A DNA stretch of 64,000 nt from Psychroflexus longus. GTDB taxonomy: Bacteria; Bacteroidota; Bacteroidia; Flavobacteriales; Flavobacteriaceae. The stretch's first letter is position 1. Every line of letters begins with the position of its first letter. Position numbers and translations under genes: made by a program. The stretch spans positions 1 to 64,000 of the forward strand of contig NZ_JAIQZE010000003.1 in NCBI RefSeq assembly GCF_020164595.1, in the 5' to 3' direction. The notes under the pieces are model-generated. The model worked only from the letters and a program-made list of their open reading frames with translations. It was not told where the DNA came from and made no database searches. Below, piece by piece: positions 187 through 28,424 of the stretch.

Positions 187-3100
187 TTAGAAACTAATAT
201 TCAATTGAGAGAAGACTCGTGTACCATCAATTCCAAACTGAGTAGTCTGCCATGGATACTTAAATCTACCAACAAAATCTAAATTTCTATCTTGTGGTGC
301 GCCGCCTCTTCCTGCATAGGCTTCTGCAAAAGTATCTGGGAATACGTCAAATAAATTATTTACACCAATGGTGAAATTAATTTTATCTGTAAACGCATAG
401 TTAACACTCAAATCGGTTAAGGTTTTACCACCATAAGTTGCGTCATCTAAAGGATTACTTGGGTGTCTGTAAGTTACAGAACCATAATACATCAAGGATA
501 AATTAGTGGTGAACTTATCAATCTCATAACTAAGTGTACCGATAATTTTCTCTCTTGGTCTCCAGGTTTCTACTCTTGAAATATCTTCTCTTGAAAATAA
601 AGCATCTCCAAGATTATTGTTTTCTATAAAACTTGGGAAATTAGTTCCTTGAACTTCAGTTCTATTAAAGTTTGCCGCTAAGCTACCGCTTAGGAAACCT
701 CTACCAAATTCAAGATTACTTAGTGTATACACAATATCAATACCCTGAGTTCTTGTGTCAATTGCATTCAAAAAGAAACCAGCAGCACCTACACCAACAT
801 TATCCAGAGTTTGATCAATTGGACTTGTAGGATCTCCAGTTGCAGTAACTTGTCCAGATAATACAATTCTATCGTCAACGTCTATTTGGTAAGCATCTAT
901 CGTAATTCCTGAGTTTTGACTGATTCTGTATGTCAAACCAGCACTTAAATTGAAAGAAGTCTCTGCATCTAGCTCGGGAATACCCAAAGCCCTCAAAGCA
1001 GGATTTCCGTTGTCCAGGATACCGTTTTGTTGAACACCATTTTCTGTTAGAGTAGTTGTCGTTGCCGTATAGTATACCTGATGTAAAGAGGGAGCTCTAA
1101 ATCCACTACTGACAGATCCTCTTAATACAAGCTTATCATCGAGGGTTTTGTAACGAGAACTCATTTTCCAACTCACATTAGAACCAAAATCACTATAATT
1201 TTCATACCTCAAAGCACCGCTCAAAAGGAAATCTTCTGTGATATCCGCGGTGATATCCGTATAAAAACCAATGTTGGATCTGTAATCGTCAGATGCATTT
1301 TCTGGACTGAAGCCACCAAATGATTCTGACCCTGTTCTTCCGCCTTGTGCGTCTGGAGACTCACCATCACCATAGGAAGCAAACTCCCCTTCTTCGGTAA
1401 CAAAGTTTTCAGTTCTATGCTCTACACCAAAGGCGACAGATAAAGCTTCAAGTCCGGTGTCATAAAATGTTCTGTTTACATCCAGATTGTTGACCACATG
1501 ACTAAACTCATGCGCACCATTGTAAAAATTGGAAGGACTTGCTCCAGCAAAGGATTGGTTAAAAGAATCTTCTATATAATAATCTATTCTATTTTTACCT
1601 AAAGTTGAACTAAGATCAAAATTCCATTCATTACGAGTTGTTCTCAGACCTAATGAAAATGTATGATCTCGAATCTGTGGTGCCATTTTGGCTAAAAAGA
1701 AATCCTGATTTGGATAAATGGCTTCAAACCCAGGGACCCAGTAAGGAACTCTTGCAAACTGAGGCGCAGAACCTTCTCGATCGGTTAAAGTACCAAAAGA
1801 GTATATTTCAGTTTCGGTTTCCTCGTCTAGGGTGTAACCTAAATTGTAGGCAAAATTGGTAATTGTCATTTCTGGCAAACCGACTTTAAACCCGGCACTT
1901 GGATTTCTATCCAAGAAATTACTCAAATCATTTAATGTAAAATCCGGTACTGCTCCGGGGATTCCCCAGTAGTCAGCTTCATCTTGAACGCTGGTGATTT
2001 CTCCCGCTCGTTGGGTTGTTTCGGAATCCATATGACTTAGTGTAAAGTTTACGTAACCGTTTTCACCTAAATCCGCTCCAAAACCTGACTCTAATTGATA
2101 TTGTTCACCGTCACCACGCGTGGTTGTGCTGAAACTGTTATTGATAAACGGATCTACTTTTTCCTTCATCACTAAGTTTATAACACCAGCTATCGCATCA
2201 GAACCATATTGCGCAGCGGCACCATCTCTTAAAACTTCTACATTTTCTAAAGCAGCAGAAGGAATAGCTTTCATATCCACACCAACTTCACCTCGTCCAG
2301 GAGTTACATAACTGTAAACAAGCGCACTTGCATTTTTACGTTTTCCATTGACCAAAACTAAAGTTCTACTTGGAAATAAACCTCTCAAATCTGCAGGGCT
2401 AAAGTGAGCCGCGGCATCAGAGACGGGTTGCTCAGTTGCATTATAAGAGGGTACACGTAACATCAATTGTTGATCTACAGTAGTCTTTCCTGTTTTTTCT
2501 AAATCTTTGGTTTTAAAATTATCTACAGCTACAGGAGAATCAAAAGACGTTCTAGGCTTACCTCTTGTACCTACAACCACTACAGCGTCTAGTTGTCCTG
2601 CATCTGGTTTTAACTGTACTTCGATTTTTGATTTACCTTGCACATTTACTTCCACATTTTTAAAACCAACGTAAGACACGACAAGTATGTTCTTTCCCTC
2701 AGGAACTTCTAAAGTGAAGTTTCCATCAAAGTCGGTTTGGGCACCAGTACTTGTTCCTTTCACTACGACATTGGCTCCAGGAAGTGGATTGCCATTTTGA
2801 TCGACAACCAGACCCGTGATTTCGCGATCCTGAATTATCCCCTCAGTTAATTTTGTTAAAGTTGACGTGGATGACGATGTGAGTACGATTTGATTTCCAT
2901 TGAAAGCATAATCAAAATTTGCTTTCTTGCTTATTTCTTTTAAAATATCTTCAAATGCAGAATTTTCTGCAGTAATACTCACCGGTTTATTTTCTTCAAT
3001 GTCGTCAATATTATAGAAAAAATTAAAGTTTGACTCAGACTTCATTTTGTCCAAAACATCAATGAGCGCCGCATTTTCATAGTTTAATGATAAACTCTGA

Positions 3101-3234
3101 AATAGCTTTGGATTAGCAAATCCTTGCACTGTCACCAAAATCATTAGGACTAGAGAAAGCATCGCTTTTCCTGTCCAGTGGAGGGAAACAAAGTTTCTGC
3201 TCCCTTTCACTTTTTTTGTGTAATTCTTCATCAT
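187..3234 (-). CDS. TonB-dependent outer-membrane receptor with STN signalling domain
   Basis: 1015-residue outer-membrane receptor. A basic start and hydrophobic signal segment (about residues 24-40) lead into an STN domain (about 50-105), the periplasmic module through which receptors contact FecR-type anti-sigma factors. Next come a carboxypeptidase-D-like beta domain (about 135-215, ending near the typical LDAVVVVG), a plug domain (about 230-355, with LVLVNGKR and VEVLRDGAAAQYGSDAIAG) and a 22-strand-type barrel ending in a terminal Phe. It lies 25 bases downstream of fecR, probably as one operon, with a terminator after it. No SusD partner is adjacent, which suggests a siderophore, vitamin or small-ligand receptor, but the substrate cannot be read from the sequence. 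The start has two adjacent Met codons; either fits. Confidence 0.93.
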   Translation of the reverse strand: MMKNYTKKVKGSRNFVSLHWTGKAMLSLVLMILVTVQGFANPKLFQSLSLNYENAALIDVLDKMKSESNFNFFYNIDDIEENKPVSITAENSAFEDILKEISKKANFDYAFNGNQIVLTSSSTSTLTKLTEGIIQDREITGLVVDQNGNPLPGANVVVKGTSTGAQTDFDGNFTLEVPEGKNILVVSYVGFKNVEVNVQGKSKIEVQLKPDAGQLDAVVVVGTRGKPRTSFDSPVAVDNFKTKDLEKTGKTTVDQQLMLRVPSYNATEQPVSDAAAHFSPADLRGLFPSRTLVLVNGKRKNASALVYSYVTPGRGEVGVDMKAIPSAALENVEVLRDGAAAQYGSDAIAGVINLVMKEKVDPFINNSFSTTTRGDGEQYQLESGFGADLGENGYVNFTLSHMDSETTQRAGEITSVQDEADYWGIPGAVPDFTLNDLSNFLDRNPSAGFKVGLPEMTITNFAYNLGYTLDEETETEIYSFGTLTDREGSAPQFARVPYWVPGFEAIYPNQDFFLAKMAPQIRDHTFSLGLRTTRNEWNFDLSSTLGKNRIDYYIEDSFNQSFAGASPSNFYNGAHEFSHVVNNLDVNRTFYDTGLEALSVAFGVEHRTENFVTEEGEFASYGDGESPDAQGGRTGSESFGGFSPENASDDYRSNIGFYTDITADITEDFLLSGALRYENYSDFGSNVSWKMSSRYKTLDDKLVLRGSVSSGFRAPSLHQVYYTATTTTLTENGVQQNGILDNGNPALRALGIPELDAETSFNLSAGLTYRISQNSGITIDAYQIDVDDRIVLSGQVTATGDPTSPIDQTLDNVGVGAAGFFLNAIDTRTQGIDIVYTLSNLEFGRGFLSGSLAANFNRTEVQGTNFPSFIENNNLGDALFSREDISRVETWRPREKIIGTLSYEIDKFTTNLSLMYYGSVTYRHPSNPLDDATYGGKTLTDLSVNYAFTDKINFTIGVNNLFDVFPDTFAEAYAGRGGAPQDRNLDFVGRFKYPWQTTQFGIDGTRVFSQLNISF

Positions 3235-3259: not shown

Positions 3260-4435
3260 TTAGCTATTGATTGTTGGTTTCTTATTGAATATTCTTACGT
3301 GTTTACCATCGATTTCAAATTCGAAATGTGAACTCAAAGCGATAGTTTGTAATGTTTCTTTAAGTGATTCATCATGAAACTCTCCTCTATAAACAGTGTT
3401 CCATAATCCATCAATTTCACTGGTAATAATAACATTGTATCGGCGTTCAAGTTTTTCCTTTAGTTCTAGGAAAGACAGTCCATCAACAACAAGAACATTA
3501 TCAATCCATGAATTGAAGTTTTTGGCCTCTACATTATTTATACTTAGGCTTAGGTCTGTTTTTTTGAAAACAGCTTGTTGATTAGGATTCAACTCTAAAG
3601 CATTTTCATTTTGAAAACTTTTATAGACATGAACTTTGCCTTCCATTAAAGTAGTTTTGGTGCTGTGATCGTTAGCGTAGGATGCTACGTTAAAATGAGT
3701 TCCCAAAACCTTGATGTTAACGCTAGGCGTATTAACTATAAATGGTTTGTGCTGATCACTTAAAACCTCAAAGTATGCTTCTCCTTTGACTTCTACTTGT
3801 CTGGTATTGGAGTTTGGGTCAAAATTCTGTGGGAATCTAAAACTGGTTCCAGAGTTTAGCCATACTAAAGTCCCATCGGACAATTTTAAACGAATTTTTT
3901 CTCCGTAAGGAATATCAATCTGGGTAATGGAAGTGTCAATTTCAACTTTATTTTCATTTCCAAAAACTATGATATCATCAGATTTACTTGCTACTAATTT
4001 TCCATTGCTGGTTTTGACATACTCTGTTGATTTTTTGTCAATAATCTGTTGGCTCCCATCTGGCAAGATAATCTGAATATGTTTGAGGCTTTCATTAGTT
4101 TCTTTAGAACTTAAAGTATGTTTTGAAGTTTTATTTACTTCGAAGTGGTTATAAAGAAAACCCAATGCAATTAAAACCATGAAGCTCGCCGCGATTGAGA
4201 TCACTTTCAATCTTTGTAGACGTTTCTGTTTTTTCAACTGAATCTGATTATAGAATTTTTCAAAGGCTTTATCAGTGTCAAAATGAAGTGGAATGACATA
4301 TGAGTAAGACTTGATTTTGTCCTTAAAAATATTAAGGTTTTTTAAGTCTTTTTTAACCCAATCATTGAGTTGAAATCTCTCTCTTATTGAAAGACTTCCT
4401 TCTAAATATTTATCAATAAGTTTTTCAGGATTCAT
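3260..4435 (-). CDS. FecR-family anti-sigma factor
   Basis: 391-residue inner-membrane regulator that would hold the neighbouring ECF sigma factor and receive the signal from the STN domain of the downstream receptor. The N-terminal cytoplasmic segment (1-75) is followed by one membrane span (about 78-100). A periplasmic FecR domain follows (about 170-285, with YGEKIRLKLSDGTLVWLNSG and VKVLGTHFNV-like strands), then a C-terminal DUF4974-type domain (about 315-385). This is the standard Bacteroidetes FecR architecture. It is probably co-transcribed with the receptor gene. Unlike the common arrangement, the sigma gene is divergent, with 110 bases between the two starts. Confidence 0.93.
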   Translation of the reverse strand: MNPEKLIDKYLEGSLSIRERFQLNDWVKKDLKNLNIFKDKIKSYSYVIPLHFDTDKAFEKFYNQIQLKKQKRLQRLKVISIAASFMVLIALGFLYNHFEVNKTSKHTLSSKETNESLKHIQIILPDGSQQIIDKKSTEYVKTSNGKLVASKSDDIIVFGNENKVEIDTSITQIDIPYGEKIRLKLSDGTLVWLNSGTSFRFPQNFDPNSNTRQVEVKGEAYFEVLSDQHKPFIVNTPSVNIKVLGTHFNVASYANDHSTKTTLMEGKVHVYKSFQNENALELNPNQQAVFKKTDLSLSINNVEAKNFNSWIDNVLVVDGLSFLELKEKLERRYNVIITSEIDGLWNTVYRGEFHDESLKETLQTIALSSHFEFEIDGKHVRIFNKKPTINS

Positions 4436-4545
4436 TTACAAATAGATCAAACTTCTTACTTATAAGATGCAACTTTTGTTAAAAACCCCTATTCAATCTC
4501 TGAAAAATTGAATATTATATCGATATTATAGCTAAATTGCTAATA

Positions 4546-5070
4546 ATGGAAGAATCAATTTTTATTAAAAAACTTAAGCAAGGTGATGAAATAGCCTACA
4601 AAATACTTTACACTAAATACTACCAATGGCTTTGTAATTACATCTTTAAGTTATGTGAAAACAAAAAAATTTCAGAAGATATTGTTCAAGACATGTTAAT
4701 GAATTTTTACGTCAAACGTCAAAAAATAGAAATTCAAACGTCCTTAAAAAATTACCTTTTCACTTCTAGCCACAATCAGTTTCTGCAACATTTACGAAAA
4801 AAGAAAATCAAGTTTGATCATTTAGATGAAGTAAAATGGGAGGCGATCGCAAATTCCATGAACACTCAGGAAAATCATCGAGAAAGTAAATTGAAGAAAT
4901 TACATAAACTTATCGATGAACTCCCCCCCCGGTGCAGAAAAGTATTCATCAAAAGCAAACTAGATAAAATTAAGTACAAAGACATTGCTGAGGATATGGA
5001 TATATCTGTAAAAACAGTAGAAAACCAAATGTCAAAAGCACTGAAGTATTTGCGGGAACGTGCAAATTAA
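4546..5070 (+). CDS. ECF RNA polymerase sigma factor (FecI-like)
   Basis: About 174 residues. Sigma region 2 lies near residues 20-75 (YTKYYQWLCNYIF, SEDIVQDMLMNF) and region 4 near 120-172 (LPPRCRKVF, KYKDIAEDMDISVKTVENQM). This matches the extracytoplasmic-function sigma-70 family found beside FecR and TonB receptors in Bacteroidetes. I chose the ATG at 4546 over an upstream in-frame TTG at 4537 because the family begins a few residues before the first helix. The gene is divergent from fecR and the receptor. A run of eight C (4923-4930) falls at the linker between the two regions, encoding the Pro-Pro-Arg of LPPRC; a one-base change there would remove region 4. Confidence 0.93.
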   Translation: MEESIFIKKLKQGDEIAYKILYTKYYQWLCNYIFKLCENKKISEDIVQDMLMNFYVKRQKIEIQTSLKNYLFTSSHNQFLQHLRKKKIKFDHLDEVKWEAIANSMNTQENHRESKLKKLHKLIDELPPRCRKVFIKSKLDKIKYKDIAEDMDISVKTVENQMSKALKYLRERAN

Positions 5071-7607: not shown

Positions 7608-9653
7608 ATGAATTTTACACGTCTTAGCTTATTTTTATTTGGTTTTATTTCGTTCTTAAATATTCAACTTAACGCCCAAGTAGATGAAAACCATTTTGAT
7701 TACATGGATCTTTTTGATTTACAGATGGTTTCAAATCCTGAAATTTCTCCAGATGGGAACACCATAATTTATGAAAGACATCAGTTTGATGTCATGACAG
7801 ACCGTAGATTAGTAAATCTATGGCAAATCTCCTTTGATGGCAAAGACCATTATCCAATCACGTCCGGAACTAAGAATTACGGAAATGTCTCCTGGTCTCC
7901 ACAAGGTGATAAATTTGCGTTTACTTCCAATCAAGATGGTTCAAATCAACTCTATGTGTATTGGGTAAAATCAAAAACAACAGCTGCTCTTACGAATTTT
8001 ACAGAAAGCCCTGGAAACATAAGCTGGTCTCCAGATGGGTCTCAACTCCTTTTTAGCAAGTTTGTATCAGAATTATCTAAAGCTGTGAAACCTGGCATAC
8101 CAGCACCTCCAACCGGAGCCCAGTGGGAAAAAGAAGCAGATGTCATAGATAAAGCTGTATACCGAAGAGATGGCGGGGGTTATGTCCAAGATGGGTACAG
8201 CCATTTATTTATAATTTCAGCTGAAGGCGGGACGGCACGTCAACTCACGTCGGGTTCACATCAATATGGATCTCCTTCCTGGGCTCCAGATGGGAAGCAT
8301 ATTTTGTACACCGTCAACAAATCTAAAAATGCTGAACTTGATCCTAACAATGAGCAAATCTTTCAGCAAAACATTATAACAGGAGAGGTAGAACAACTCT
8401 CCAAAGAGCGTGGACCTTTCAACTCTCCAAAAATTTCTCCAGATGGAAAATATATCGCTTATACAGGTTTCAAAGATAGATTTGTAGGATATCAATTGAC
8501 TCAACTTTATTTGATGGACAGAGACAATAAACAAGTTGAAGTTTTATCAAACAATTTCACTCAAGACATTTCATCCATAACCTGGTCTAAAGATAGCAAG
8601 TCTATTTATTTCAGATTTGATGAAGAGGGGAATAGTAAAGTTGGTAATATAGATCTTAAAGGAAATTCAACTACAGTAGCTGAAAACCTTGGTTCTGCAA
8701 GTATTGGAAGACCTTATGGTGGTGGAAGTTATTCTGTTTCAGATAAGGGTAACTTAGCATTTTCTCATGTTACAACTTCAACGCCCTCAGAATTGGCAGT
8801 TTTAGGCAGAAAGTCGAATTCACAACCAAAACTTCTTACGAGTCTAAATGAAAATCTATTGAAGTCTAAAAAGACAGGAAACGTAGAGGAATTCTGGGTG
8901 GATTCATCAGTAGACGGGTTTAAGGTTCAGGGTTGGATCATCACACCACCAAACTTTGATCCTTCCAAAAAATATCCAATGATTTTAGAAATTCATGGTG
9001 GTCCTTATACTAATTATGGATCTCGATTTTCTCCAGAATTGCAATTCATTGCAAGCCGGGGTTATGTGGTGGTTTATACCAATCCACGAGGAAGCACCAG
9101 TTACGGCGAAGACTTTGCGGCTTACATCAATCATAATTATCCAAGCGAAGATTATAACGACTTAATGGATGCTACAGAGTATGTAGTAGATCAAGGCTAT
9201 GTTGATGAAAACAATCTGTTTATTACTGGAGGCAGTGGAGGAGGAGTGCTTACCGCCTGGTCAATTGGTAAGACAGATAGATTTAAGGCTGCTGTAGTGG
9301 CAAAACCAGTAATCAATTGGTATAGTTTTGTTTTAACTGCAGATGGTTCTCCATTCTTTTCAAAATACTGGTTCAAAGACAAGCCTTGGGAATCTCCGGA
9401 AGATTATTTAAAGTATTCTCCAATCTCACTGGTAGGAAATGTAAAAACACCAACGATGCTTTTGACCGGTCAGGAAGATTACAGAACACCTATGAGTGAA
9501 ACCGAACAGTATTATTCAGCATTAAAGCTACAGGGAATTGATGCAGTGATGGTAAGAATCGCGGGTTCTGGCCATGGTATTGCGGGAAAACCTAGTAATT
9601 TGTTTAGAAAAGTAGGATACATCACAAATTGGTTTAATAAGTATAAGGACTAA
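7608..9653 (+). CDS. Secreted S9-family prolyl oligopeptidase-like peptidase
   Basis: 681 residues. An N-terminal signal peptide (cleavage near LNAQ, about residue 24) is followed by a beta-propeller of WD40/TolB-like repeats (repeated ISPDG, WSPDG and WAPDGK motifs, about residues 40-400). The C-terminal alpha/beta-hydrolase domain (about 430-681) holds the catalytic triad Ser543 (GGSGGG), Asp624 (GQEDYRTP) and His656 (SGHG). This matches acylaminoacyl- or dipeptidyl-peptidase-like S9 enzymes that trim short peptides in the periplasm. It sits 11 bases after the amidase gene and 155 bases before the crtA-like gene, which has its own probable control region. Confidence 0.94.
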   Translation: MNFTRLSLFLFGFISFLNIQLNAQVDENHFDYMDLFDLQMVSNPEISPDGNTIIYERHQFDVMTDRRLVNLWQISFDGKDHYPITSGTKNYGNVSWSPQGDKFAFTSNQDGSNQLYVYWVKSKTTAALTNFTESPGNISWSPDGSQLLFSKFVSELSKAVKPGIPAPPTGAQWEKEADVIDKAVYRRDGGGYVQDGYSHLFIISAEGGTARQLTSGSHQYGSPSWAPDGKHILYTVNKSKNAELDPNNEQIFQQNIITGEVEQLSKERGPFNSPKISPDGKYIAYTGFKDRFVGYQLTQLYLMDRDNKQVEVLSNNFTQDISSITWSKDSKSIYFRFDEEGNSKVGNIDLKGNSTTVAENLGSASIGRPYGGGSYSVSDKGNLAFSHVTTSTPSELAVLGRKSNSQPKLLTSLNENLLKSKKTGNVEEFWVDSSVDGFKVQGWIITPPNFDPSKKYPMILEIHGGPYTNYGSRFSPELQFIASRGYVVVYTNPRGSTSYGEDFAAYINHNYPSEDYNDLMDATEYVVDQGYVDENNLFITGGSGGGVLTAWSIGKTDRFKAAVVAKPVINWYSFVLTADGSPFFSKYWFKDKPWESPEDYLKYSPISLVGNVKTPTMLLTGQEDYRTPMSETEQYYSALKLQGIDAVMVRIAGSGHGIAGKPSNLFRKVGYITNWFNKYKD

Positions 9654-9754
9654 TTTTTTCCGAAATTCATTGAACTTTATCCTGAATTTGAAACGAACTT
9701 AATTGAAGGTTTCCATCATTGAATCATTCATTGTTTAAATATTAATAAAATTAA

Positions 9755-9790
9755 GGTAAAAACTAATTCGAAACGACATTAGTTTTCACC
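9755..9790. promoter_or_regulatory. 36-bp near-perfect palindrome upstream of the crtA-like gene, candidate operator
   Basis: Left arm 9755-9770 and right arm 9774-9790 pair at 15 of 16 positions, with one mismatch (9758/9787) and one bulged C (9777), around a 3-base AAA loop. The outer halves read GGTAAAAACTAAT and ATTAGTTTTCACC. It ends 18 bases before the crtA-like start and overlaps a weak -7 element (CACCTTTG, 9787-9794; consensus TAnnTTTG). It could be the operator for the MerR/B12 regulator of the facing operon. Alternatively it could be a transcript hairpin or a weak terminator for the S9 gene, though no clean T-run follows directly. Confidence 0.5.
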
Positions 9791-9808
9791 TTTGTCTTTT
9801 TATACATT

Positions 9809-10498
9809 ATGTCACAAATTACTACACTTACCGTTTTAACTTATAATGGCTTTGCTGATAAATTCTGGGCATTATCGATGATGCAATTTGGTCATCGGTA
9901 TATGAAAACAGTTGAAGGACAAAGCTTTTATAAACTAATGGGAAGTGGCAAGGATAATTTCAATCCTTTACCGGACTGGAATGTGTACGCGGTATTACAA
10001 GTTTGGGATGATGAGTCTTATGCTCAGGACTTTTTTGATACGCATACTTTAAGTCAGCTTTATAAAAAGCATGCGACAAAAATGGAAGTGCTTTATCTTC
10101 AAAGTATTCAGGCTAGAGGTTTGTGGAACGGTAAGAATCCATTTCAGTCTTCGGTTCAAGCTAAAGATATAGCTAAAGATGATAAGATTGCTGTGATTAC
10201 TCGAGCTAGCATTAAAACCAATATGCTTCTGAAATTCTGGAAGTTTGTTCCAGAATCTCAAAAACCACTTGAAAATGCAGAGGGACTAATCTATACAAAA
10301 GGCTTTGGAGAATTACCGTTTGTAGAAATGGCGACCTTTAGTATTTGGGAAACTATGGATAGCCTTCAAGCTTATGCTTATCAAAGTCATGAACATATCA
10401 AAGCCATCCAAAAAACGAGAAAGCTGGACTGGTACAGCGAAGAACTTTTTTCAAGATTCAGGCTTCAAGAAAAAATTGTTATAAAGGATGCTAGTTAG
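9809..10498 (+). CDS. crtA: CrtA-related carotenoid hydroxylase (spheroidene monooxygenase family)
   Basis: 229 residues matching the CrtA family from the start: an N-terminal FADKFWALSMM segment, FYKLMGSGKD, and WNVYAVLQVWDDE correspond to the well-known 'GLADRLWAF', 'FWKLMGSG' and 'VYAILAxWPDE' blocks of spheroidene monooxygenase. CrtA in purple bacteria is a haem protein that adds the 2-keto group to spheroidene. A crtA-related gene from the marine Flavobacterium strain P99-3 has been described as a carotenoid 2-hydroxylase in myxol formation, and that is the likely role here. The gene converges on crtY and their stop codons overlap (10495-10498). No other member of the carotenoid operon lies on this strand, so it has separate transcription. 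Confidence 0.85.
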   Translation: MSQITTLTVLTYNGFADKFWALSMMQFGHRYMKTVEGQSFYKLMGSGKDNFNPLPDWNVYAVLQVWDDESYAQDFFDTHTLSQLYKKHATKMEVLYLQSIQARGLWNGKNPFQSSVQAKDIAKDDKIAVITRASIKTNMLLKFWKFVPESQKPLENAEGLIYTKGFGELPFVEMATFSIWETMDSLQAYAYQSHEHIKAIQKTRKLDWYSEELFSRFRLQEKIVIKDAS

Positions 10499-11655
10499 GT
10501 ATTAAAGCCGTCTTTTGCATGTCTAAAAAATCCTTTGATGAATGGGGATGAGCTTAAATTCATTATGATTTTTAGATCCTCCTGAAATGAAGATTTTTCG
10601 TCAAGAAATCTAAAAATCGTTTGAATTGAATTGTTTTTATACATTCTGTAAAATAATTCTTCCCCGAAGGAATTTTCCTTAGTGAGCACTTCAAGAAAAA
10701 TTTTATCGTAATGCTTATATTTTTTTGGTGAAGAGTCTTTATAAAAATCTTGTTTTGATTTCAGAAACTTGATAATATTCTGACTTTTCCTTTCGCAATT
10801 TTTAAAAGAATAACCAGATGAGGCTTTCACCCAGCCTCCGGCTGTTCCTATTTTGATGATATGTTTTTGATTGAAGTCTTCAAAAGGGAAATTGGTCATT
10901 GGTATAATACCATTTTCAGTTTCAAGAATAGTATAATCTTCAACTTTTAAATTCTCTGCAATATATTTTTGTAAATAATCATCATAAGTGGATTCACTTA
11001 CAAGGTCTGGACTAAAATAGGTAAACTCTACTAAAGCTTTTGTTGATGAAAAAGGTAAAATGTAGGTAAAACTTGTCGTCTGTCCATCCTTTAGGTCATA
11101 ATCCATCATCGTGAATTTTGACTCATCAAAAACCGGTGTTTTTGTTTCAATGATCCAGCCTTTAAAATGTTGAGCTACGTTTAAATAGTCGGTATCGTCT
11201 AAAGAATAGCTTGACGGAATTCTACTATCAAACACATATTTAGCTTCATAATTTCCTCCAGTGGTTGTGATGATTGCGCTTTCTTGCGACTGAACAATTT
11301 TTTGAACTTCCTCAGTCTTCCAGTCGATGTTTGGTTTCTGAAGCTTTATTTTTGCGTCAGCATAAAACTGAGCTGACCTTAGCATCTTATAGCTATACTT
11401 TTTTAGGTCCAGAATAATGTTCTCTCCATTCGCTTTTACTATGCCTTTATCCCAGGTTTTAGACACTAAGTGGTCCCATTTTCCTTCGCCTTTTTCCCAG
11501 AAACTCCACGTTCTATCGTTTTTATTTTTTTGATCTTTATCTAAAATCAAAATAGATTTATTTTCAAAAAAAGCATCATCGTTCATTGCAAGAGCAAGAT
11601 TTAATCCAGCTGCACCAGCACCAACGATTATGTAATCATATTTAGAAATAGACAT
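10495..11655 (-). CDS. crtY: Lycopene beta-cyclase
   Basis: 386 residues. The N-terminal FAD-binding motif IIVGAGAAGLNLA (about residues 9-21) and the later block KIGTAGGWVKASSGYSF (about 270-286) are typical of CrtY-type lycopene cyclases. It closes the beta-ionone ring on lycopene. If only one end is cyclised the product is gamma-carotene, the substrate for the hydratase and desaturase encoded upstream. It is the last gene of the carotenoid operon. Its start overlaps the end of the cruF-like gene by 14 bases, and its stop overlaps that of the convergent crtA-like gene. Confidence 0.93.
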   Translation of the reverse strand: MSISKYDYIIVGAGAAGLNLALAMNDDAFFENKSILILDKDQKNKNDRTWSFWEKGEGKWDHLVSKTWDKGIVKANGENIILDLKKYSYKMLRSAQFYADAKIKLQKPNIDWKTEEVQKIVQSQESAIITTTGGNYEAKYVFDSRIPSSYSLDDTDYLNVAQHFKGWIIETKTPVFDESKFTMMDYDLKDGQTTSFTYILPFSSTKALVEFTYFSPDLVSESTYDDYLQKYIAENLKVEDYTILETENGIIPMTNFPFEDFNQKHIIKIGTAGGWVKASSGYSFKNCERKSQNIIKFLKSKQDFYKDSSPKKYKHYDKIFLEVLTKENSFGEELFYRMYKNNSIQTIFRFLDEKSSFQEDLKIIMNLSSSPFIKGFFRHAKDGFNT

Positions 11656-12286
11656 AGAAGTAGATAAAGAATGCGAGTTGAACTAAGTATAAATTGAGGG
11701 AAATAAGAAATTGCCCTTTTATTTTGGCTAGGTGAAATACCAGATGAAATATGAACGAAATAATACCCCAGGCAATATAATTATCTATGGGGGCATAGCC
11801 TCCAGAGAATTCCCAGAAATCAAATATTGGAGCTACTTTTTCCATGAATAAATCTAAAAATAGCATCATGAAGGTCCCTAATAACGATTTTAAAAAAATA
11901 TTGTCGGATAAGTGATTGGCGACTGCACCACATATAAATGTCAACATTGCCCAATTAATTCCTATGAGAATGGGCACTTCAAAAATCTTCGGACCAAAAT
12001 TATCTCCGTAGGCATATTCTCCAAAAAATAAACCGAAGGTCACTCCTAGATATTCTGCGTAGATACCTAAAACTCCAAATAGAATAAATAAAATCCACTT
12101 TTTAATAGTATCCAGCGGAAAGAAAAATATGAGGGCCAGAAACATGATGAAAAGATTGAGAGCTGTTCTGCTTGCAAACCAATCTTGATAACCCAGGCTA
12201 ATCCCTATTATTCCAGAAATATGAAAAAGCCAGAGAATTCCAATAGCTATAAGAACGTATTTTTTTTCTTTATAAAGGCTTTTCAT
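11642..12286 (-). CDS. cruF: CruF-like carotenoid 1',2'-hydratase (DUF422 membrane protein)
   Basis: 214-residue integral membrane protein with about seven hydrophobic segments. The middle part (YAEYLGVTFGLFFGEYAYG, then PILIGINWAML, and a later APIDNYIAWG) matches the DUF422 'carotenoid biosynthesis protein' family. In flavobacteria and cyanobacteria this family contains CruF, which hydrates the 1',2' double bond of the acyclic psi end of gamma-carotene. The context fits: it lies between a CrtD-like desaturase and crtY in the same operon, with 9 bases before it and a 14-base overlap after it. Without an assay the exact reaction is inferred from family and neighbours. Confidence 0.85.
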   Translation of the reverse strand: MKSLYKEKKYVLIAIGILWLFHISGIIGISLGYQDWFASRTALNLFIMFLALIFFFPLDTIKKWILFILFGVLGIYAEYLGVTFGLFFGEYAYGDNFGPKIFEVPILIGINWAMLTFICGAVANHLSDNIFLKSLLGTFMMLFLDLFMEKVAPIFDFWEFSGGYAPIDNYIAWGIISFIFHLVFHLAKIKGQFLISLNLYLVQLAFFIYFYVYF

Positions 12287-12295
12287 TCACATAAA

Positions 12296-13765
12296 TTAGG
12301 CTTGTGGAACTAAATCTGAAACGATTTTTGCAGATAGTAAGCATAATGGAATACCACCACCTGGGTGAACACTACCACCACAAAAATAGAGGTTTTTTAT
12401 TTTAGAACTAAAGTTAGGATGTCTTAAAAACGCAGCAAATTTATCATTGCTAGAAGTACCGTATAAGGAACCCTGAAAAGAAGCAGTTGCCGTTTCAATA
12501 GTTTCAGGTGTTTCTACATGTTCTATTTCGATATGGTTTTCAATCTTGGTGTCAAGGCATTTATTTATTTTGGCAATTACTTTTTCCCTAATATAAGTAG
12601 TTTGAGCTGACCAGTCCTGACCACAATTTGTAGGTGCGTTCAACATTACGAACCAATTTTCGCAACCTTCTGGAGCATCACCATTAACTTCTTTTGAAGT
12701 TATGTTGATATAAACTGTAGGATCATCAGCAAAATATTTTTTATTAAAAAGGTGATCGAATTCCTTTTTGTAATCTTCCGTAAATAGAATGTTGTGTAAG
12801 TCTAGTTCTTTAAACTTTTTATTCACACCCCAATAAAAAATTAATGCTGAACTTGAGCGTTCCTGTTCCAATGTTTTTTTTGGTGGTGTTGCTTTTTTTA
12901 GTAATGATTTATAAGCGGAATAGACATCCATATTACAGATGACCATGTCAAATATCTGCTCTTCTTGATTGACTCTGATACCTCTTATTTTTTTATCGTC
13001 ATAAAGAATTTCATCAACTTTTTGGTTGAGCTTAAAAATGATTCCGACGTCTTTAGCCAATTTGGTCAGGCTTTGTGAAATATCATGCATTCCATGTTTT
13101 GGAATATATGCTCCGTAATTCATTTCCAAATGAGGAATCATAGACATAATTCCAGGTGTCTTGTATGGAGAAGAACCATTGTAAGTAGCAAATCTGTTAA
13201 AGAGTTGAACGAGCTTTGGATGTTCAAAATACCTTTCATTGACTTCATTAAGACTATTGTCTAGATGAAGTTTTCCTAGATTAATAACTGCCTTTAAAGT
13301 GTCTTTAGATAAGTAAGTGCTAAATTTATGAAGCGATTTTTCTAAAAAAAGCCTGGATGTTAAATTGTATTTAGTTTGAGTACTTTTCAAATAATCACTA
13401 AGATTATTTTCAGGCTCATTAAAGGTTTTGGCAGCTTCTTTTATAAATGTATTTTTATCTGCGTTGACTTGAAATCGCTGGCCATCTTCCCAGAAGTAAT
13501 TGCAGATGGTATTTTTTCTTTTGTATTCGAAATAGGACTTAGGATCTATGTTATATAGACCAAAAAGCTCATCAACAAGTTGAGGCATGGTAAAAAGTGA
13601 AGGACCATAATCAAACCTGTAATCACCTCTTCGGAAGCTGTGAAGCTTGCCTCCAGTATAATTGTTTTGTTCAAAAACTTCTACGTGATAGCCTTTAGCC
13701 TTTAACCGTAATGCTGATGCTATTCCAGCAATGCCAGAACCAACAACTGCAATTTTCATATTCAT
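12296..13765 (-). CDS. crtD: CrtI-family carotenoid desaturase, probable 3',4'-desaturase CrtD
   Basis: 489 residues with an N-terminal dinucleotide motif AVVGSGIAGIASALRL, GGKLHSFRRGDYRFDYGPS, and a C-terminal FCGGSVHPGGGIPLCLLSAK block. These mark a CrtI-type carotenoid oxidoreductase. A second, more typical CrtI is encoded in the same operon. This copy adjoins the cruF-like gene, so it is best read as CrtD, the 1'-hydroxycarotenoid 3',4'-desaturase of saproxanthin and myxol formation. ATGs at 13765 and 13759 are both possible; the first directly abuts the crtZ stop. A duplicate phytoene desaturase is the alternative. Confidence 0.85.
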   Translation of the reverse strand: MNMKIAVVGSGIAGIASALRLKAKGYHVEVFEQNNYTGGKLHSFRRGDYRFDYGPSLFTMPQLVDELFGLYNIDPKSYFEYKRKNTICNYFWEDGQRFQVNADKNTFIKEAAKTFNEPENNLSDYLKSTQTKYNLTSRLFLEKSLHKFSTYLSKDTLKAVINLGKLHLDNSLNEVNERYFEHPKLVQLFNRFATYNGSSPYKTPGIMSMIPHLEMNYGAYIPKHGMHDISQSLTKLAKDVGIIFKLNQKVDEILYDDKKIRGIRVNQEEQIFDMVICNMDVYSAYKSLLKKATPPKKTLEQERSSSALIFYWGVNKKFKELDLHNILFTEDYKKEFDHLFNKKYFADDPTVYINITSKEVNGDAPEGCENWFVMLNAPTNCGQDWSAQTTYIREKVIAKINKCLDTKIENHIEIEHVETPETIETATASFQGSLYGTSSNDKFAAFLRHPNFSSKIKNLYFCGGSVHPGGGIPLCLLSAKIVSDLVPQA

Positions 13766-14212
13766 CTATTTGTTGTTTTTCAGAAAACGTTTTGGTGGTA
13801 TAAGCATACCAAAACACTCACTGTCTTCTTTTCCTAAATGCTTATGATGTATTTTGTGAGCTCTTCGAATACCTTTTGCATACCAGTGATTTGCTTTTCG
13901 GAATAACTTAAATCTTTGGTGGATAAATATATCATGAACAAGAAAGTATGCTAAACCGTAACCCGCTATACCAGCACCAATAGCTACTGCAAATTGAAAT
14001 TCTGCAACCATGAAAAAGTACATGCTTACAACGGCATAGAAAACAAAAAACAAATCGTTGCGTTCCCACCAACTTTTATGATCTTTTAAATGGTGGTCTT
14101 TATGAAGAACCCACAAAAAACCATGCATAATATATTTGTGCGTAAACCACGCCATAAATTCCATCCCCAAAAATGTTGCGACAAACACAACAATCCAAAT
14201 CAATATATCCAT
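13766..14212 (-). CDS. crtZ: Beta-carotene 3-hydroxylase
   Basis: 148-residue membrane di-iron hydroxylase. It has the full set of histidine clusters of CrtZ: HKYIMHG, HKDHH, HDIFIHQR and HKIHHKH, set among about four membrane segments (for example FVATFLGMEFMAWF near the start). It adds the 3-hydroxyl to the beta-ionone ring, giving zeaxanthin-type rings or the 3-OH of myxol and saproxanthin. The length is normal for short bacterial CrtZ. It lies between crtB (4-base gap) and crtD (abutting), so translation is probably coupled. Confidence 0.95.
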   Translation of the reverse strand: MDILIWIVVFVATFLGMEFMAWFTHKYIMHGFLWVLHKDHHLKDHKSWWERNDLFFVFYAVVSMYFFMVAEFQFAVAIGAGIAGYGLAYFLVHDIFIHQRFKLFRKANHWYAKGIRRAHKIHHKHLGKEDSECFGMLIPPKRFLKNNK

Positions 14213-14216
14213 AATG

Positions 14217-15056
14217 TTAAACTAAATTAAACCTGCAAGAAATGTAGGATTTTGCAAGCAGGCTTGCTTTTTGATAATTAGGTACTCGTATTCTTTTATT
14301 CTTTATTTCTAAAGAAGGTGTGTTTTTTAATTTTTGAAGCAGTTTGGAGTAGTAAATGTAAGCTGTATAAACTCCTAATTTAGCTTCAACTGGTAATTTT
14401 GCTATACCTCTTAAACCTGCTTTAAAGTCTTCGTCAATTTCCGTTATAATTACATTTTTCGTTTCCTCATCCAAACGGCTTAAATCTGCATTCGGAAAAT
14501 AGGATCTTTCTAATTCTTCGCAGTCTGCTTTCAAATCACGTAGAAAATTCACTTTTTGAAAAGCGGATCCTAAACGCATTGCATCGTTCTTTAGACTTTC
14601 GTATGCTTCTTTATCTCCCTTGACAAATACTTTAAGACACATCAAACCTACCACATCTGCACTTCCGTAGATGTAAGCTTCATATTCTTCTTGAGTTAAA
14701 TAATTGGATTTGTGCAAATCCTTTTCCATACTATTCATGAAAGACTCATACAAATGAGCATCGATATCATACTTATGAACAGTTTCCTGAAAGCTATTCA
14801 GAATTGGGTTGAGGCTGATTTTTTGATTTAAAGCTTCGTATAAATCATTTTTAAAATTTTTAAAAAGCTTGGACTTGTCATAATCGTGGAAAGTGTCAAC
14901 AATCTCATCAGCAAATCTTACAAACCCGTAGATATTATAAATGTCTTGCCTTATTGAAGGTGCAAGCAATTTTGTTGCAATCGAAAAAGATGTACTGTAA
15001 GAGTTTGTAACTAACTTACTGCAATCTCTCGAAACTGTATCAAATAATGACTTCAT
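14217..15056 (-). CDS. crtB: Phytoene synthase
   Basis: About 279 residues of the squalene/phytoene synthase family. The first aspartate-rich motif is FVRFADEIVD, followed by a second region AFQKVNFLRDLKAD that binds Mg-diphosphate. It joins two geranylgeranyl diphosphates into phytoene, the first committed step. I place the start at the ATG at 15056. The frame extends to a TTG at 15074 inside the end of crtI, but MKSLFDTVSRDCS is the usual family beginning. It directly follows crtI. No geranylgeranyl diphosphate synthase gene is present in the window, so the precursor must come from elsewhere. Confidence 0.96.
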   Translation of the reverse strand: MKSLFDTVSRDCSKLVTNSYSTSFSIATKLLAPSIRQDIYNIYGFVRFADEIVDTFHDYDKSKLFKNFKNDLYEALNQKISLNPILNSFQETVHKYDIDAHLYESFMNSMEKDLHKSNYLTQEEYEAYIYGSADVVGLMCLKVFVKGDKEAYESLKNDAMRLGSAFQKVNFLRDLKADCEELERSYFPNADLSRLDEETKNVIITEIDEDFKAGLRGIAKLPVEAKLGVYTAYIYYSKLLQKLKNTPSLEIKNKRIRVPNYQKASLLAKSYISCRFNLV

Positions 15057-15060
15057 TAGT

Positions 15061-16518
15061 TTAATTTTTTTCAATTAACTCAGATACCAATTTACCTGAT
15101 ATTAATGCTGGTGGAACGCCAGGCCCAGGAACTGTCAATTGCCCTGTAAAATAAAGGTTCTTAACCTTTTTACTCTTCAATTTTGGTCTTAAAAAAGCCG
15201 TTTGTAATAATGTGTTTGCCATACCATAAGCATTCCCTTTGTATGAGTTGTAATCTTCTACAAAGTCATTAACACAAAAAGACCTTTTAAATATAATATT
15301 TTTCTGGACGTTTTGGTCAGTCAAAGATTCAAACCTTGTCATGATTTTGTTAAAGTATTCTTCCCTTAGTTCTTCTGTATCCTCTATTCCTGGAGCTATG
15401 GGTACAAGGAAAAAACCGTTTTCGTGACCTTCTGGGGCAGTTGAAGGATCAGTTAAGGAAGTGAAGTTTGCGTAAAATAAAGGTTCATCAGGCCACTTTG
15501 GAGTTGTATAAATATCTTTAGCATGCTCATTAAAATCCACATCAAAGAACAAATTATGATGTTTGATATTTTCAAGTTTTTTATCAAAACCGATATAAAA
15601 AAGAAGTGAAGATGGGGCAAAAACTTTCTTATTCCAGTAAGCTTCGGAATATTGACGATGTTTTTGATCTAATAAAGTTTCTGTATGGTGGTAATCTGCT
15701 CCTGATAAAATAGTGTCATAATTTATAGTTTCACCATTCACTTCTAAAGCAACAGCAGTATTGTTTTCGACTTCAATTTTATCAATGTTTGCATTGGTGT
15801 TTATTTTAACGCCAAGCGATTCAGCCAATTTAACCATAGCAGCAATGACTTCGTGAAATCCACCTTTAGGATGCCATGTCCCGAGACCGAAATCAGCATA
15901 ATTCATAAAATTATAGAAAGATGGAGTTTCGCTAGGCTTAGCCCCTAAAAATAAAACAGGGAACTTAAGTATTTGCTTGAGTTTTTCACTTTTAAATTCT
16001 TTTTCAACATCTTTATCGACAGTACTAAAAAACTCACCTAATTTGGTAATAGTTTTTGGGGTAACCAACTCTAAAGGGGAGACACCAGGTTTATAGACTA
16101 AATCTTTTATGGCTATGTCGTAATTGTCACGAGCATTGTCAATAAATTTTTTAAGTTTCTTGGCTCCATTTTCTTCTTCCTTATCAAAAATCTTATAGAT
16201 CTTATCTAGGCTATCACCAATCTCTATGGTTTCGCCTCCCTCGAAAATGACCTGGTAACCTGGATCCAGCTTATCGAGTTCATAAAAGTCTGAAGGTTTT
16301 TTACCAAAATCTGCAAAAAATCTTTCAAAAACATCAGGCATCCAATACCAGGATGGCCCCATATCAAAAGTGAATCCTTTTTCTTTAAAGCGTCTTGCTC
16401 TACCTCCAAGGCTATCGTTTTTTTCAAAAATTTCAACTGTATTTCCACTTTGGGCAAGATAACATGCCGCCGCCAAGGATGAAAAGCCGGAGCCAATTAC
16501 TGCAATCGATTTACTCAT
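15061..16518 (-). CDS. crtI: Phytoene desaturase
   Basis: 485 residues. The N-terminal FAD/NAD motif is AVIGSGFSSLAAACYLA. Family blocks SLGGRARRFKEKGFTFDMGP, WHPKGGFHEVI and the C-terminal FTGQLTVPGPGVPPALISG are standard for CrtI, which takes phytoene to lycopene in successive trans desaturations at the membrane. It begins one base after the stop of the MerR regulator gene and is followed at once by crtB, so regulator, desaturase and synthase are almost certainly one transcript. Confidence 0.96.
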   Translation of the reverse strand: MSKSIAVIGSGFSSLAAACYLAQSGNTVEIFEKNDSLGGRARRFKEKGFTFDMGPSWYWMPDVFERFFADFGKKPSDFYELDKLDPGYQVIFEGGETIEIGDSLDKIYKIFDKEEENGAKKLKKFIDNARDNYDIAIKDLVYKPGVSPLELVTPKTITKLGEFFSTVDKDVEKEFKSEKLKQILKFPVLFLGAKPSETPSFYNFMNYADFGLGTWHPKGGFHEVIAAMVKLAESLGVKINTNANIDKIEVENNTAVALEVNGETINYDTILSGADYHHTETLLDQKHRQYSEAYWNKKVFAPSSLLFYIGFDKKLENIKHHNLFFDVDFNEHAKDIYTTPKWPDEPLFYANFTSLTDPSTAPEGHENGFFLVPIAPGIEDTEELREEYFNKIMTRFESLTDQNVQKNIIFKRSFCVNDFVEDYNSYKGNAYGMANTLLQTAFLRPKLKSKKVKNLYFTGQLTVPGPGVPPALISGKLVSELIEKN

Positions 16519-16519
16519 T

Positions 16520-17419
16520 TTATAAATTTAATGTCAATTCTGAAATATCCCTAAAGGCTCTGATTCCCTCAGGAAGTTTAGTGTTTTTTTCAATTAATTC
16601 AACCGCCTTTCTTCCCAATATCCAATATTCACAAAGACCTTCTGGACAGATGTGTTTTTTAAAATCATCCAAATACTGATCAATATTATCAGGTTTTGTA
16701 GTGAGATAGCTAACAAAGACGGTATTATCATATAAGGTTGAAAGATAAGTTAAATCTTCCATAGGAAGGCTTTGACCTAGAAAAATAACTTTGTAGCCAT
16801 GAGACAAGATTTCAAAATTAGCATAATAAAGACCTATATCATGAATTTCTTCATCGGGAAGGAAAAGAACAAAAACCTTATCAGTTTTTGAAGCCTGTTC
16901 TTTTTGAAGACTTTCAATATTGATAAACAATTTTTGCTTGATTAAATTTGAAATAAATTGTTCGTGGGCCGGTGTAATTGTGCCGGCTTGCCACAATAGA
17001 CCAATTTCAATCATTAAAGGCATAAACACTTCTTCATAAATGTCTGAAAAAGTCTTGTTGATGAGCAGGTTTTCATAAGTTCTCAAAAATAACGGCTGAT
17101 CAAAATTCATCATAGCCACCTTCATGGATTTTAATGCTCTGTTGGAATTGCTTTTACTAGTTGTGATACTCTGAACCAACTCAGAAATTTCTCCATCATT
17201 CATTTTTGAAATCCGTGAAATTTTGTAACCGTTTTCATTTAAGAACGCGATATTCAATATTTTCTGGAGTCCAGTAACCCCATAATTTCTAATATTGGTT
17301 TCCGTGCGTTCTGGTTCTAAAACATTGTAGCGTTTCTCCCACATACGAATAGTATGTGCTTTGATCCCGCTCAACGATTCTAAATCTTTAATGCTGAAGT
17401 TTTGTTTAATGTTTCCCAT
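16520..17419 (-). CDS. MerR-family regulator with B12-binding domain (CarH/LitR-like)
   Basis: About 299 residues from the ATG at 17419. An N-terminal MerR winged helix (FSIKDLESLSGIKAHTIRMW, EKRYNVLEPERT) is followed by a helical cap (about 100-175) and a Rossmann-type cobalamin-binding domain (about 185-300). The lower-ligand motif ExHxxG is present as EIHDIG (His193 from this ATG). The cap motif of CarH, W-x9-E-H, reads W-x9-E-Q here (LLWQAGTITPAHEQF). CarH proteins repress carotenoid genes in the dark with adenosylcobalamin and release DNA in light. Its place as first gene of the crt operon suggests self-control and control of pigment synthesis. An upstream TTG at 17434 is rejected because it falls at the probable transcription start. 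Confidence 0.9.
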   Translation of the reverse strand: MGNIKQNFSIKDLESLSGIKAHTIRMWEKRYNVLEPERTETNIRNYGVTGLQKILNIAFLNENGYKISRISKMNDGEISELVQSITTSKSNSNRALKSMKVAMMNFDQPLFLRTYENLLINKTFSDIYEEVFMPLMIEIGLLWQAGTITPAHEQFISNLIKQKLFINIESLQKEQASKTDKVFVLFLPDEEIHDIGLYYANFEILSHGYKVIFLGQSLPMEDLTYLSTLYDNTVFVSYLTTKPDNIDQYLDDFKKHICPEGLCEYWILGRKAVELIEKNTKLPEGIRAFRDISELTLNL

Positions 17420-17438
17420 AACTATATATAACAATAGT

Positions 17439-17446
17439 CAAAAATA
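17439..17446 (-). promoter_or_regulatory. -7 promoter element of the carotenoid operon
   Basis: On the minus strand the bases read TATTTTTG, an exact match to the Bacteroidetes -7 consensus TAnnTTTG. It ends 19 bases before the regulator ATG (17419), giving a short leader. No clear -33 TTTG is seen at the usual distance, which would fit an activated or otherwise regulated promoter. Confidence 0.6.
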
Positions 17447-17462
17447 TAGATTATTATCATAC

Positions 17463-17496
17463 TTTGTTTAAAAATTCAAGTTAAAACTTAAACAAA
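17463..17496. promoter_or_regulatory. Inverted repeat upstream of the carotenoid operon promoter
   Basis: Perfect 9-bp arms TTTGTTTAA (17463-17471) and TTAAACAAA (17488-17496) with a 16-base spacer. The spacer itself contains AAGTT-AA-AACTT (17478-17489, slightly overlapping the right arm). It lies just upstream of the -7 element and is a candidate binding site for the operon's own MerR/B12 regulator. Such repeats arise by chance more often in AT-rich DNA, so this stays tentative. Confidence 0.4.
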
Positions 17497-17580
17497 TAAT
17501 TCATTTTGAATCTTAGTTTTTAGCCTGATATCTTAAAATAATTAAGAAACGTGGAAACTTGCTTTTAAAACTAGGATGAA

Positions 17581-18399
17581 TTACAAGGTGGAAATATCAA
17601 GTCTGTAAGGGTTTTCCTCCTCTGTAGAAATGCCCAAAGCCTCATGCACATAATCAAAAGTGGATAAAAGTCTTGGCTTACCATCAACCAATGCTACATC
17701 GTGTTCAAAGTGGATACTAGGTTTTCCGTCCGAAGTTAAAATAGTCCAACCATCGGGTAATTGCTTGATACGCTTAGTACCCATATTAATCATCGGTTCA
17801 ATGGCTATGGTCATTCCTTCAATAAATTTTTTCCCACGTCCTCTTTTACCATAATTTGGTATCTGAGGATCTTCATGCATTGTTTTCCCAAGTCCATGAC
17901 CAACAAGTTCTCTCACAACCCCGTAACCGTGTTGCTCCGTGTATTTTTGAATAGCATAACCAATATCTCCAACGCGATTCCCTTCTACAAACTGTTTAAT
18001 GCCCTTGTAAAGTGATTCTTTCGTCACACGAATAAGCTTTTTTACATCTTCATCGACTTCACCTACTTCAAAGGTGTAAGCATGATCACCGTAATATTGA
18101 TTTTTTACTGCACCACAATCTACAGAAAGAACATCTCCTTCTTGTAGAGGTTTGTTGTTTGGTATGCCATGAACTACTTGATCATTAGGGCTGACGCAAA
18201 GTGTATTCGGGAAATCATAAAGCCCCAGAAAACCTGGAATAGCTCCGTGATCTCTAATGAATTCTTCTGCAAGTTTATCAAGATGTAAAGATGTAATGCC
18301 TGGTTTTATTTCTTTGGCAATCATCCCTAAAGTCTTGGAAACAATTTGAGCACTTTCGTACATCAGTTTTAATTCCTCCCTTGTTTTTGTAATTATCAT
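17581..18399 (-). CDS. map: Methionine aminopeptidase, type I
   Basis: 272 residues with all five metal ligands of the pita-bread fold: Asp94 (SVDCGA), Asp105 (YGDHAY), His168 (VGHGLG), Glu201 (AIEPMIN) and Glu232 (HFEHDV), plus substrate His77. It removes the initiator Met from nascent proteins in the cytosol. It is the last gene of a compact minus-strand group gpmI - thioredoxin-like - HAD - map, beginning directly at the end of the HAD gene. In many bacteria map sits with ribosomal genes, so this may be a second copy, though that cannot be judged from one window. Confidence 0.96.
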   Translation of the reverse strand: MIITKTREELKLMYESAQIVSKTLGMIAKEIKPGITSLHLDKLAEEFIRDHGAIPGFLGLYDFPNTLCVSPNDQVVHGIPNNKPLQEGDVLSVDCGAVKNQYYGDHAYTFEVGEVDEDVKKLIRVTKESLYKGIKQFVEGNRVGDIGYAIQKYTEQHGYGVVRELVGHGLGKTMHEDPQIPNYGKRGRGKKFIEGMTIAIEPMINMGTKRIKQLPDGWTILTSDGKPSIHFEHDVALVDGKPRLLSTFDYVHEALGISTEEENPYRLDISTL

Positions 18400-22737: not shown

Positions 22738-22830
22738 ATTATTATTTTTGAAATGTAAAATTAAAATTATATTCTAAAGACTTCTTATAATTTAAAGACT
22801 ATTAACTTTCGCCAAAAGTTCAAACAAAAG

Positions 22831-22858
22831 AAAAAGACCTTATAAAAAGGTCTTTTTT
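22831..22858. terminator. Intrinsic terminator between the collagen-motif lipoprotein gene and clpP
   Basis: Stem AAAAGACCTT / AAGGTCTTTT (arms about 22832-22841 and 22848-22857) with A and T runs on both flanks. It lies just past the stop of the minus-strand lipoprotein gene at 22876 and would end that transcript before clpP. Confidence 0.75.
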
Positions 22859-28401: not shown

Positions 28402-28424
28402 AATATTAAAAATATTAGAAGTGT

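Follow-up and report, generated by a model that had tools for sequence, protein, structure and literature searches.

The crtA-like gene of Psychroflexus longus is preceded by a near-perfect palindrome and runs towards a carotenoid operon that encodes a B12-binding MerR protein. What does the palindrome do, and does it tie crtA to the facing operon? In the preliminary description, one regulator, probably the MerR protein, was suggested to coordinate both, and a terminator of the upstream S9 peptidase gene was given as the main alternative. We examined these proposals in the window, that is, the whole analysed stretch of 64,000 nucleotides, and in related genomes. The features concerned are the following (window coordinates, invariant columns counted over 10 genomes):

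7608..9653, + strand: S9 peptidase gene, upstream neighbour of the palindrome
9731..9738, + strand: TTGTTTAA, left half of a "light box", at a fixed distance from the palindrome in 10/10 genomes
9754..9765, + strand: left arm of the palindrome, AGGTAAAAACTA, consensus AGGTGAAAACTA, 6/12 columns invariant, over the predicted -33 region
9766..9779, no strand: spacer, 14 bp in 10/10 genomes, 0/14 columns invariant
9780..9791, + strand: right arm of the palindrome, TAGTTTTCACCT, 10/12 columns invariant, holding the predicted -7 element
9780..9787, + strand: predicted -7 element TAGTTTTC, one base off the flavobacterial consensus TAnnTTTG, with a predicted transcription start near 9792
9809..10498, + strand: crtA-like gene, probably crtA-OH (carotenoid 2-hydroxylase of the psi end; NF045923, 193.7 bits; accessible text of PMC11855829)
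10495..17419, - strand: convergent crtY...merR operon, including crtB, cruF and crtZ
16523..17419, - strand: gene of the CarH-like MerR regulator with a B12-binding region (Pfam MerR_1 and B12-binding_2)
17439..17446, - strand: -7 element TATTTTTG of the merR-crt promoter, a full match to TAnnTTTG
17464..17495, - strand: complete light box TTGTTTAA-N16-TTAAACAA of the merR-crt promoter

The palindrome and its conservation upstream of crtA

We observed at 9754-9791 an inverted repeat made of two 12-bp arms, AGGTRAAAACTA and TAGTTTTCACCT, with a 14-bp spacer between them. It had been described at 9755-9790 as a palindrome with one mismatch and a bulged base, and the fold confirms both, the mismatch being an A opposite a C, together with an inner three-base stem. 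Taken without gaps, the arms extend in the window to 9753-9767 and 9778-9792, are complementary at 14 of 15 positions and leave a gap of 10; the unit conserved in evolution is 9754-9765, the 14-bp spacer and 9780-9791. It ends 17 nt before the crtA ATG at 9809 (18 nt if the end first described is used). When the 64-kb window was searched for arms of 15, mismatched at no more than one position and separated by 3-20 bases, 3 places qualified, and 20 order-1 Markov resamples together gave 4 such matches; with laxer arms of 12, there are 15 places in the window versus a mean of 6.65 in the resamples. Another strong palindrome, with 15-bp arms, lies at the window's end (63930-63970). Folded as RNA, the crtA palindrome beats 200 of 200 shuffles on both strands. 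It is real and above chance, and its conservation in 10 genomes is decisive in this respect.

Conservation in relatives was the check that the preliminary description had set beforehand, its absence being the refuting outcome, and this outcome was not obtained. For this comparison we took the 120 bases before each crtA start, with minus-strand loci turned. A crtA-like protein is present in 25 of the 27 Psychroflexus genomes, and the palindrome has been kept upstream of its gene in 10 of these 25. The carriers are the ten genomes with a CrtA identity of 74-100%, and the palindrome is absent from the fifteen at 46-65%. In L032 and L033 the CrtA matches start at residue 2, without an ATG, and the upstream stretch is slightly shifted; the absence there is taken from a genus-wide pattern search. 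L050, a more distant MAG whose CrtA relative is at 39%, was left out of the comparison. The genus-wide search (both arms and N14, up to 3 mismatches) returned the same 10 of 27 genomes, always before crtA and at one place each; the reversed control pattern gave 0 matches in the 27 genomes, and no further copy of the palindrome was found in them with up to 3 mismatches. Present at a single place in 10 genomes and at none in 17, it does not show the multiple copies of a repetitive or mobile element. In a draw of 397 genomes of the family the pattern matched in 3, namely the genome under study, G003 of the same genus and, with 3 mismatches, L092 of another genus, and the reversed control matched in 2. 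In our sample, the palindrome occurs once per carrier genome and is confined to a single clade.

Across the 10 genomes, 16 of the 24 arm columns are invariant. The gene order S9, crtA and convergent crtY...merR operon is also identical in 10/10, and an amidase gene before S9 was seen, wholly or cut, in nine, the contig of L053 beginning too late. In the more distant G001 (L054), crtA adjoins crtY, with no S9 gene upstream and no palindrome. Since S9 stands upstream in all ten carriers, context does not separate the presence of the palindrome from that of this neighbour, but the spacing data do. Indeed, the palindrome lies 17 nt from the crtA ATG in five genomes and 18 nt in the other five, and 60, 60, 80, 98, 100, 103, 122, 125, 138 and 166 nt from the S9 stop. 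Because the distance to crtA is fixed and that to S9 varies, the palindrome belongs to crtA. In addition, no indel is found in 10/10 genomes from a TTTGTTTAA block to the end of the palindrome, and the DNA before this block varies in length. In L045, L046 and L047, the stretch between S9 and crtA contains G+C-rich repeats with CCTGCCCGTC / GCAGGCGGGC, which account for much of the length variation and look like a dispersed intergenic repeat. The bare 9-mer TTTGTTTAA was tried as a genome-wide signature and rejected, with 130 occurrences versus 177 for its control.

The crtA promoter and the facing carotenoid operon

With 193.7 bits against the NCBIfam spheroidene monooxygenase family (NF045923), the crtA product is below the cut-off of 300. 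According to the accessible text of PMC11855829, the homologue of Nonlabens was shown to be CrtA-OH, which hydroxylates C-2 of the psi end to give deoxymyxol. By the labels used, the cluster in the window has the same gene set as that of Nonlabens and therefore crtA is probably crtA-OH; the crtZ label comes from gene order and from that accessible text only, with no Pfam match. The ends of crtY and crtA, which converge, overlap by 4 bases (10495-10498), so that there is no intergenic room for a terminator between the two transcripts and an antisense overlap is likely.

In the available part of PMC9723704, TAnnTTTG is the flavobacterial -7 consensus, placed at -12 to -5, and the median leader in Flavobacterium psychrophilum is 24 nt. 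An exact TAnnTTTG was not found in the ten crtA upstream regions. TAGTTTTC is the sole TAnnTTTn common to them (9/10; L048 reads TTGTTTTC), and we infer that it is the -7 element. It is contained in the right arm, in agreement with the overlap of palindrome and -7-like element noted in the preliminary description. If TAGTTTTC occupies -12 to -5, the crtA transcript would begin near 9792 with a leader of 17 nt, and the palindrome would span about -38 to -1, thus probably lying outside the message.

The merR-crt promoter has a core that is strongly conserved in 11 genomes and consists of TTGTTTAA, then TTTAACTT, then TTTTAAACAA, then TATTTTTG, with CTGTTTAA replacing TTGTTTAA in L047 and TACTTTTG replacing TATTTTTG in L053. 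When the two promoters are overlaid without gaps from their shared TTGTTTAA, TAGTTTTC of crtA and TATTTTTG of crt both fall at offset 49. The crtA half-box reads TTGTTTAA in 6/10 genomes, ATGTTTAA in 3/10 and TTGACTAA in 1/10. In the genome under study, TTGTTTAA-N39-43-TAnnTTT gave 12 matches versus 12 for its control; the combination being as frequent as its control, it is the conservation of both promoters, and not the rarity of the pattern, that supports the register.

It had been proposed that nine bases of the left arm, AAAAACTAA, recur as a shared control motif at 17513-17521 (minus strand). The 9-mer is in fact present there, but this claim does not hold: conservation of the crt promoter does not extend to this site, the 9-mer is found at chance frequency (202 in the genome versus 308 for the reversed control), and even the closest relative, L044, reads AAAAACTTG at this place. 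Moreover, since the palindrome occurs nowhere else in the genome with up to 3 mismatches, it cannot tie crtA to the crt operon. Co-regulation of crtA and crt by the CarH-like MerR is possible, not via the palindrome but through TTGTTTAA, whose distance to the -7 element is equal in the two promoters.

The MerR protein reaches 60.7 bits against NCBIfam CarH, far below the cut-off of 400, and is one of the two MerR_1 matches in the genome. Among PDB chains it matches 3whp and 5c8d, of which 5c8d bears the name CarH. In its alignment with 3whp, a W, an E and an H are kept at what we take to be W131, E141 and H177 of Thermus CarH, and a Q stands at each of what are presumably the places of H132 and H142, so that its photochemistry may differ from that of CarH. 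H177 is the axial ligand in CarH according to the available part of PMC4557120.

A sigma-70-like gene at 4537-5070 was considered as a partner and dropped, since, of the 6 relatives with loci long enough to include this place, only 3 have it (L044-L046, but not L047-L049; the loci of L051-L053 do not reach this region). By eye, it faces away from FecR-like (3260-4435) and TonB-dependent-receptor-like (187-3234) genes.

Operator, leader hairpin or terminator

The palindrome is thus conserved, unique, in a fixed geometry to crtA and to TTGTTTAA, and it lies in a promoter that is in register with that of crt. With a probability of roughly 0.6, we consider that it is a double-stranded operator that in Psychroflexus overlies the crtA-like (crtA-OH) core promoter. 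We infer a bound protein, the sign of its action and its physiological role as follows. A symmetric regulator, as a dimer or two dimers, would bind both 12-bp half-sites of the inverted pair, one on the predicted -33 region and the other on the predicted -7 element, and once bound would control the access of RNA polymerase; repression would be the likelier sign because the -7 element itself is covered. The crtA promoter would be built like that of merR-crt, keeping the TTGTTTAA half-box and its spacing to the -7 element, with the left arm in place of the second half-box, and the outcome would be a separate control of 2-hydroxylation on the way to myxol.

Conserved half-sites at a fixed spacing within a predicted promoter, as expected of a dedicated operator, are indeed what we observed, and the arms are unequally conserved, the better one (10/12) lying on the -7 element. 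That the spacer is fixed at 14 bp while its sequence is free suggests helical geometry or promoter spacing rather than a hairpin loop. In L051 and L052, whose palindromes are identical, a change from AGG..CCT to AGA..TCT on both arms keeps the symmetry. Against an operator stand the -7 reading, which is made on TAnnTTTC, one base off the consensus, and the half-box, which is exact in only six of the ten genomes. As a regulon-wide motif the palindrome was rejected, since pattern, half-site and core searches gave no further target sites: GTGAAAAC-N6-36-GTTTTCAC matched in 5 of 27 genomes, four times at crtA and once elsewhere, and its control matched in 2 genomes; single half-sites with at most one mismatch were not enriched in the genome under study (29 versus 62 for the control). 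The presumed regulator would therefore have one target. Single-target operators exist, and missing further copies do not exclude an operator. Among the known regulator motifs that we compared with the half-site AGGTGAAAACTA, none matched it.

Compared with interrupted palindromic operators of the repressor type, which lie over a core promoter, the crtA palindrome shares inverted half-sites whose spacing is constant and which cover the predicted -33 and -7 elements, but it is wide, with its 12-bp arms and 14-bp gap. With MerR-type dyads, located in the promoter spacer, it shares a symmetry centre between two promoter elements. However, classical MerR dyads are compact, with few bases between the arms, whereas here the gap is 14 and the arms are on the promoter elements themselves. 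The CarH/LitR operators of Thermus, Bacillus megaterium and Myxococcales also overlap carotenoid promoter elements and have a CarH-like MerR gene nearby; unlike them, the palindrome contains no tandem repeat of the CarH kind. In the accessible text of PMC9304148, CarH operators are tandem 11-bp direct repeats, nnnnTnnACAn, and no such operator was found in the arms. One could still suppose that the palindrome is an alternative form of the site of the CarH-like MerR, crtA and crt answering the same protein via unlike sites, given that this protein is encoded in the facing operon, that it accounts for one of only two MerR_1 matches in the genome and that TTGTTTAA adjoins the palindrome. We regard this as very unlikely: the arms are without TnnACA/TGTnnA, the known CarH repeat in the accessible text of PMC9304148, and no such palindrome is seen in the merR-crt promoter of 11 genomes or, with up to 3 mismatches, elsewhere in the 27 genomes.

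If the promoter were further upstream, the palindrome would be transcribed and a hairpin before the start codon could control translation, attenuation or mRNA stability. Each of the 9 distinct sequences is predicted to form a stable plus-strand fold, at -12.0 to -18.2 kcal/mol; the fold and loop set excludes L052, whose palindrome is that of L051. Of the arm cells, 98.1% pair, five of them as G-U or U-G. Plus-strand loops fold slightly better than shuffled ones, with a Stouffer z of -2.55 for nine related, non-independent sequences of which mainly two drive the effect; for the minus strand of the nine related sequences the z is -1.58. Covariation in the stem amounts to one two-sided change, with a score reached by 60 of 500 shuffles. 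This reading is nevertheless unlikely, since the spacer length is invariant and conservation is stronger in the right arm (10/12) than in the left (6/12), although the two sides of a stem should be equally constrained. The excess of wobbles (5 wobble, 1 A-C, 1 U-U) is near expectation, as 7 of the 12 left-arm bases wobble on transition by a hand count. Furthermore, no -7-like element common to the ten genomes was seen upstream of the palindrome, no Rfam family was found over it in window 9500-18500 at E values up to 1, and a predicted start at about 9792 argues against its transcription. Spacing, arm inequality, the lack of indels and the promoter register thus favour the operator over a leader hairpin.

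The earlier main alternative, an intrinsic terminator of the S9 transcript, agrees with the position of the hairpin behind S9, a gene that precedes it in all ten genomes, and with a T-rich tail (4-7 T among the first 8 bases). We find it highly improbable: the spacing data disfavour it, the hairpin lying 60-166 nt from the S9 stop versus 17-18 nt from crtA, in 10/10 genomes only two T follow the right arm before another base interrupts the run, and ordinary-looking terminator hairpins elsewhere in the window, e.g. 28372-28402 and 22830-22858, differ from it in their T run. A terminator consensus scan did not list the palindrome, its rules excluding mismatches and bulges. We also asked whether the palindrome could end the transcript of the convergent crt operon on the minus strand. 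Weak folds of this strand in several relatives (-8.3 in L048, -11.6 in L044 and -12.3 in L045) speak against it; in the window the minus strand is the stronger one. A terminator-like site inside crtA (minus strand, 10265-10225) was dropped as well, its fold ranging from -8.1 to -25.7 kcal/mol over 11 genomes. It would be extremely improbable, finally, that the symmetry serves RNA polymerase itself in a bidirectional promoter, each arm carrying TAGTTTTC in its own direction. The left-arm consensus does contain GAAAACTA, i.e. TAGTTTTC on the minus strand, but the symmetry runs four bases past the -7-like octamer (ACCT/AGGT), visual inspection showed no TTTG-like -33 element for either orientation, and the mismatch in the left arm of the window (AAAAACTA) spoils the mirror copy of the octamer. 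We know of no sigma factor that needs symmetry beyond the -7-like octamer.

We therefore describe the palindrome as a cis element of crtA that is specific to one clade, ordinary in kind and most probably an operator. It is useful because it is precise and testable, as a candidate operator on one hydroxylation step of a flavobacterial carotenoid pathway. In a literature search that had most subscription journals outside its reach, we found no paper on this palindrome or on crtA regulation in Bacteroidetes. A bolder and quite tentative reading, which we do not favour at present, is that the crtA-OH promoter is a two-input switch, combining a half light box for the CarH-like MerR with a lineage-specific palindromic operator for a single-target regulator. 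If so, the early carotenoids would be light-controlled and the addition of the 2-hydroxyl towards myxol would be decided separately.

The light box beside light-related genes

The light box, rather than the palindrome, is probably the site of the CarH-like MerR. It is inverted, TTGTTTAA-N16/17-TTRAACAA, and crtA has its left half only, at the register of crt; it thus differs from the tandem array of CarH in being an inverted pair. TTGTTTAA followed, after gaps of 13-18, by TTNAACAA gave 10 matches versus 0 for the control in the genome under study and was found in 26 of the 27 Psychroflexus genomes. The narrower N16/17 form was present in 35 of 60 genomes of the family, with 81 forward matches versus 2 forward and 4 reverse matches of the control (summed), some of the light-box matches being there by chance or inside genes. 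Examples of sites are the following:

17464-17495, window
3940-3972, L122
3901-3932, L123
3029-3061, L128
3280-3367, L131

In the genome under study, the N16/17 sites precede merR-crt, two photolyase operons and a DUF4136 gene. Ten proteins encoded beside boxes in the genus were a flavin reductase, two photolyases, a photolyase-related protein, an SDR, a DUF4136 protein, a rhodopsin, a beta-carotene dioxygenase and two unmatched proteins; a second rhodopsin gene stands beside a light box in L131. For the family, we scanned 20 neighbouring proteins from 19 of 30 loci with a light box. Four were Amino_oxidase proteins of CrtI length, six were fasciclin proteins and four had no match; the others were, one each, a flavin reductase, TetR_C, HSP90, SDR, methyltransferase and DUF2867/NmrA protein. 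The comparison has thus exposed a family-wide candidate operator for light-related genes (crtI-like, photolyase, rhodopsin and fasciclin genes). The literature search, again with most subscription journals outside its reach, gave no paper with both TTGTTTAA and "flavobacteri", and its sole match for TTGTTTAA with "carotenoid" concerns a pepper peroxidase.

In G016, TTGTTTAAGTTGAAAATTTATTAACTTTAAACAA (or its complement) is identical at five places, on contigs C16, C23, C29, C34 and C106, two of them at contig ends. This suggests a repeated, perhaps mobile, element with a box-like sequence.
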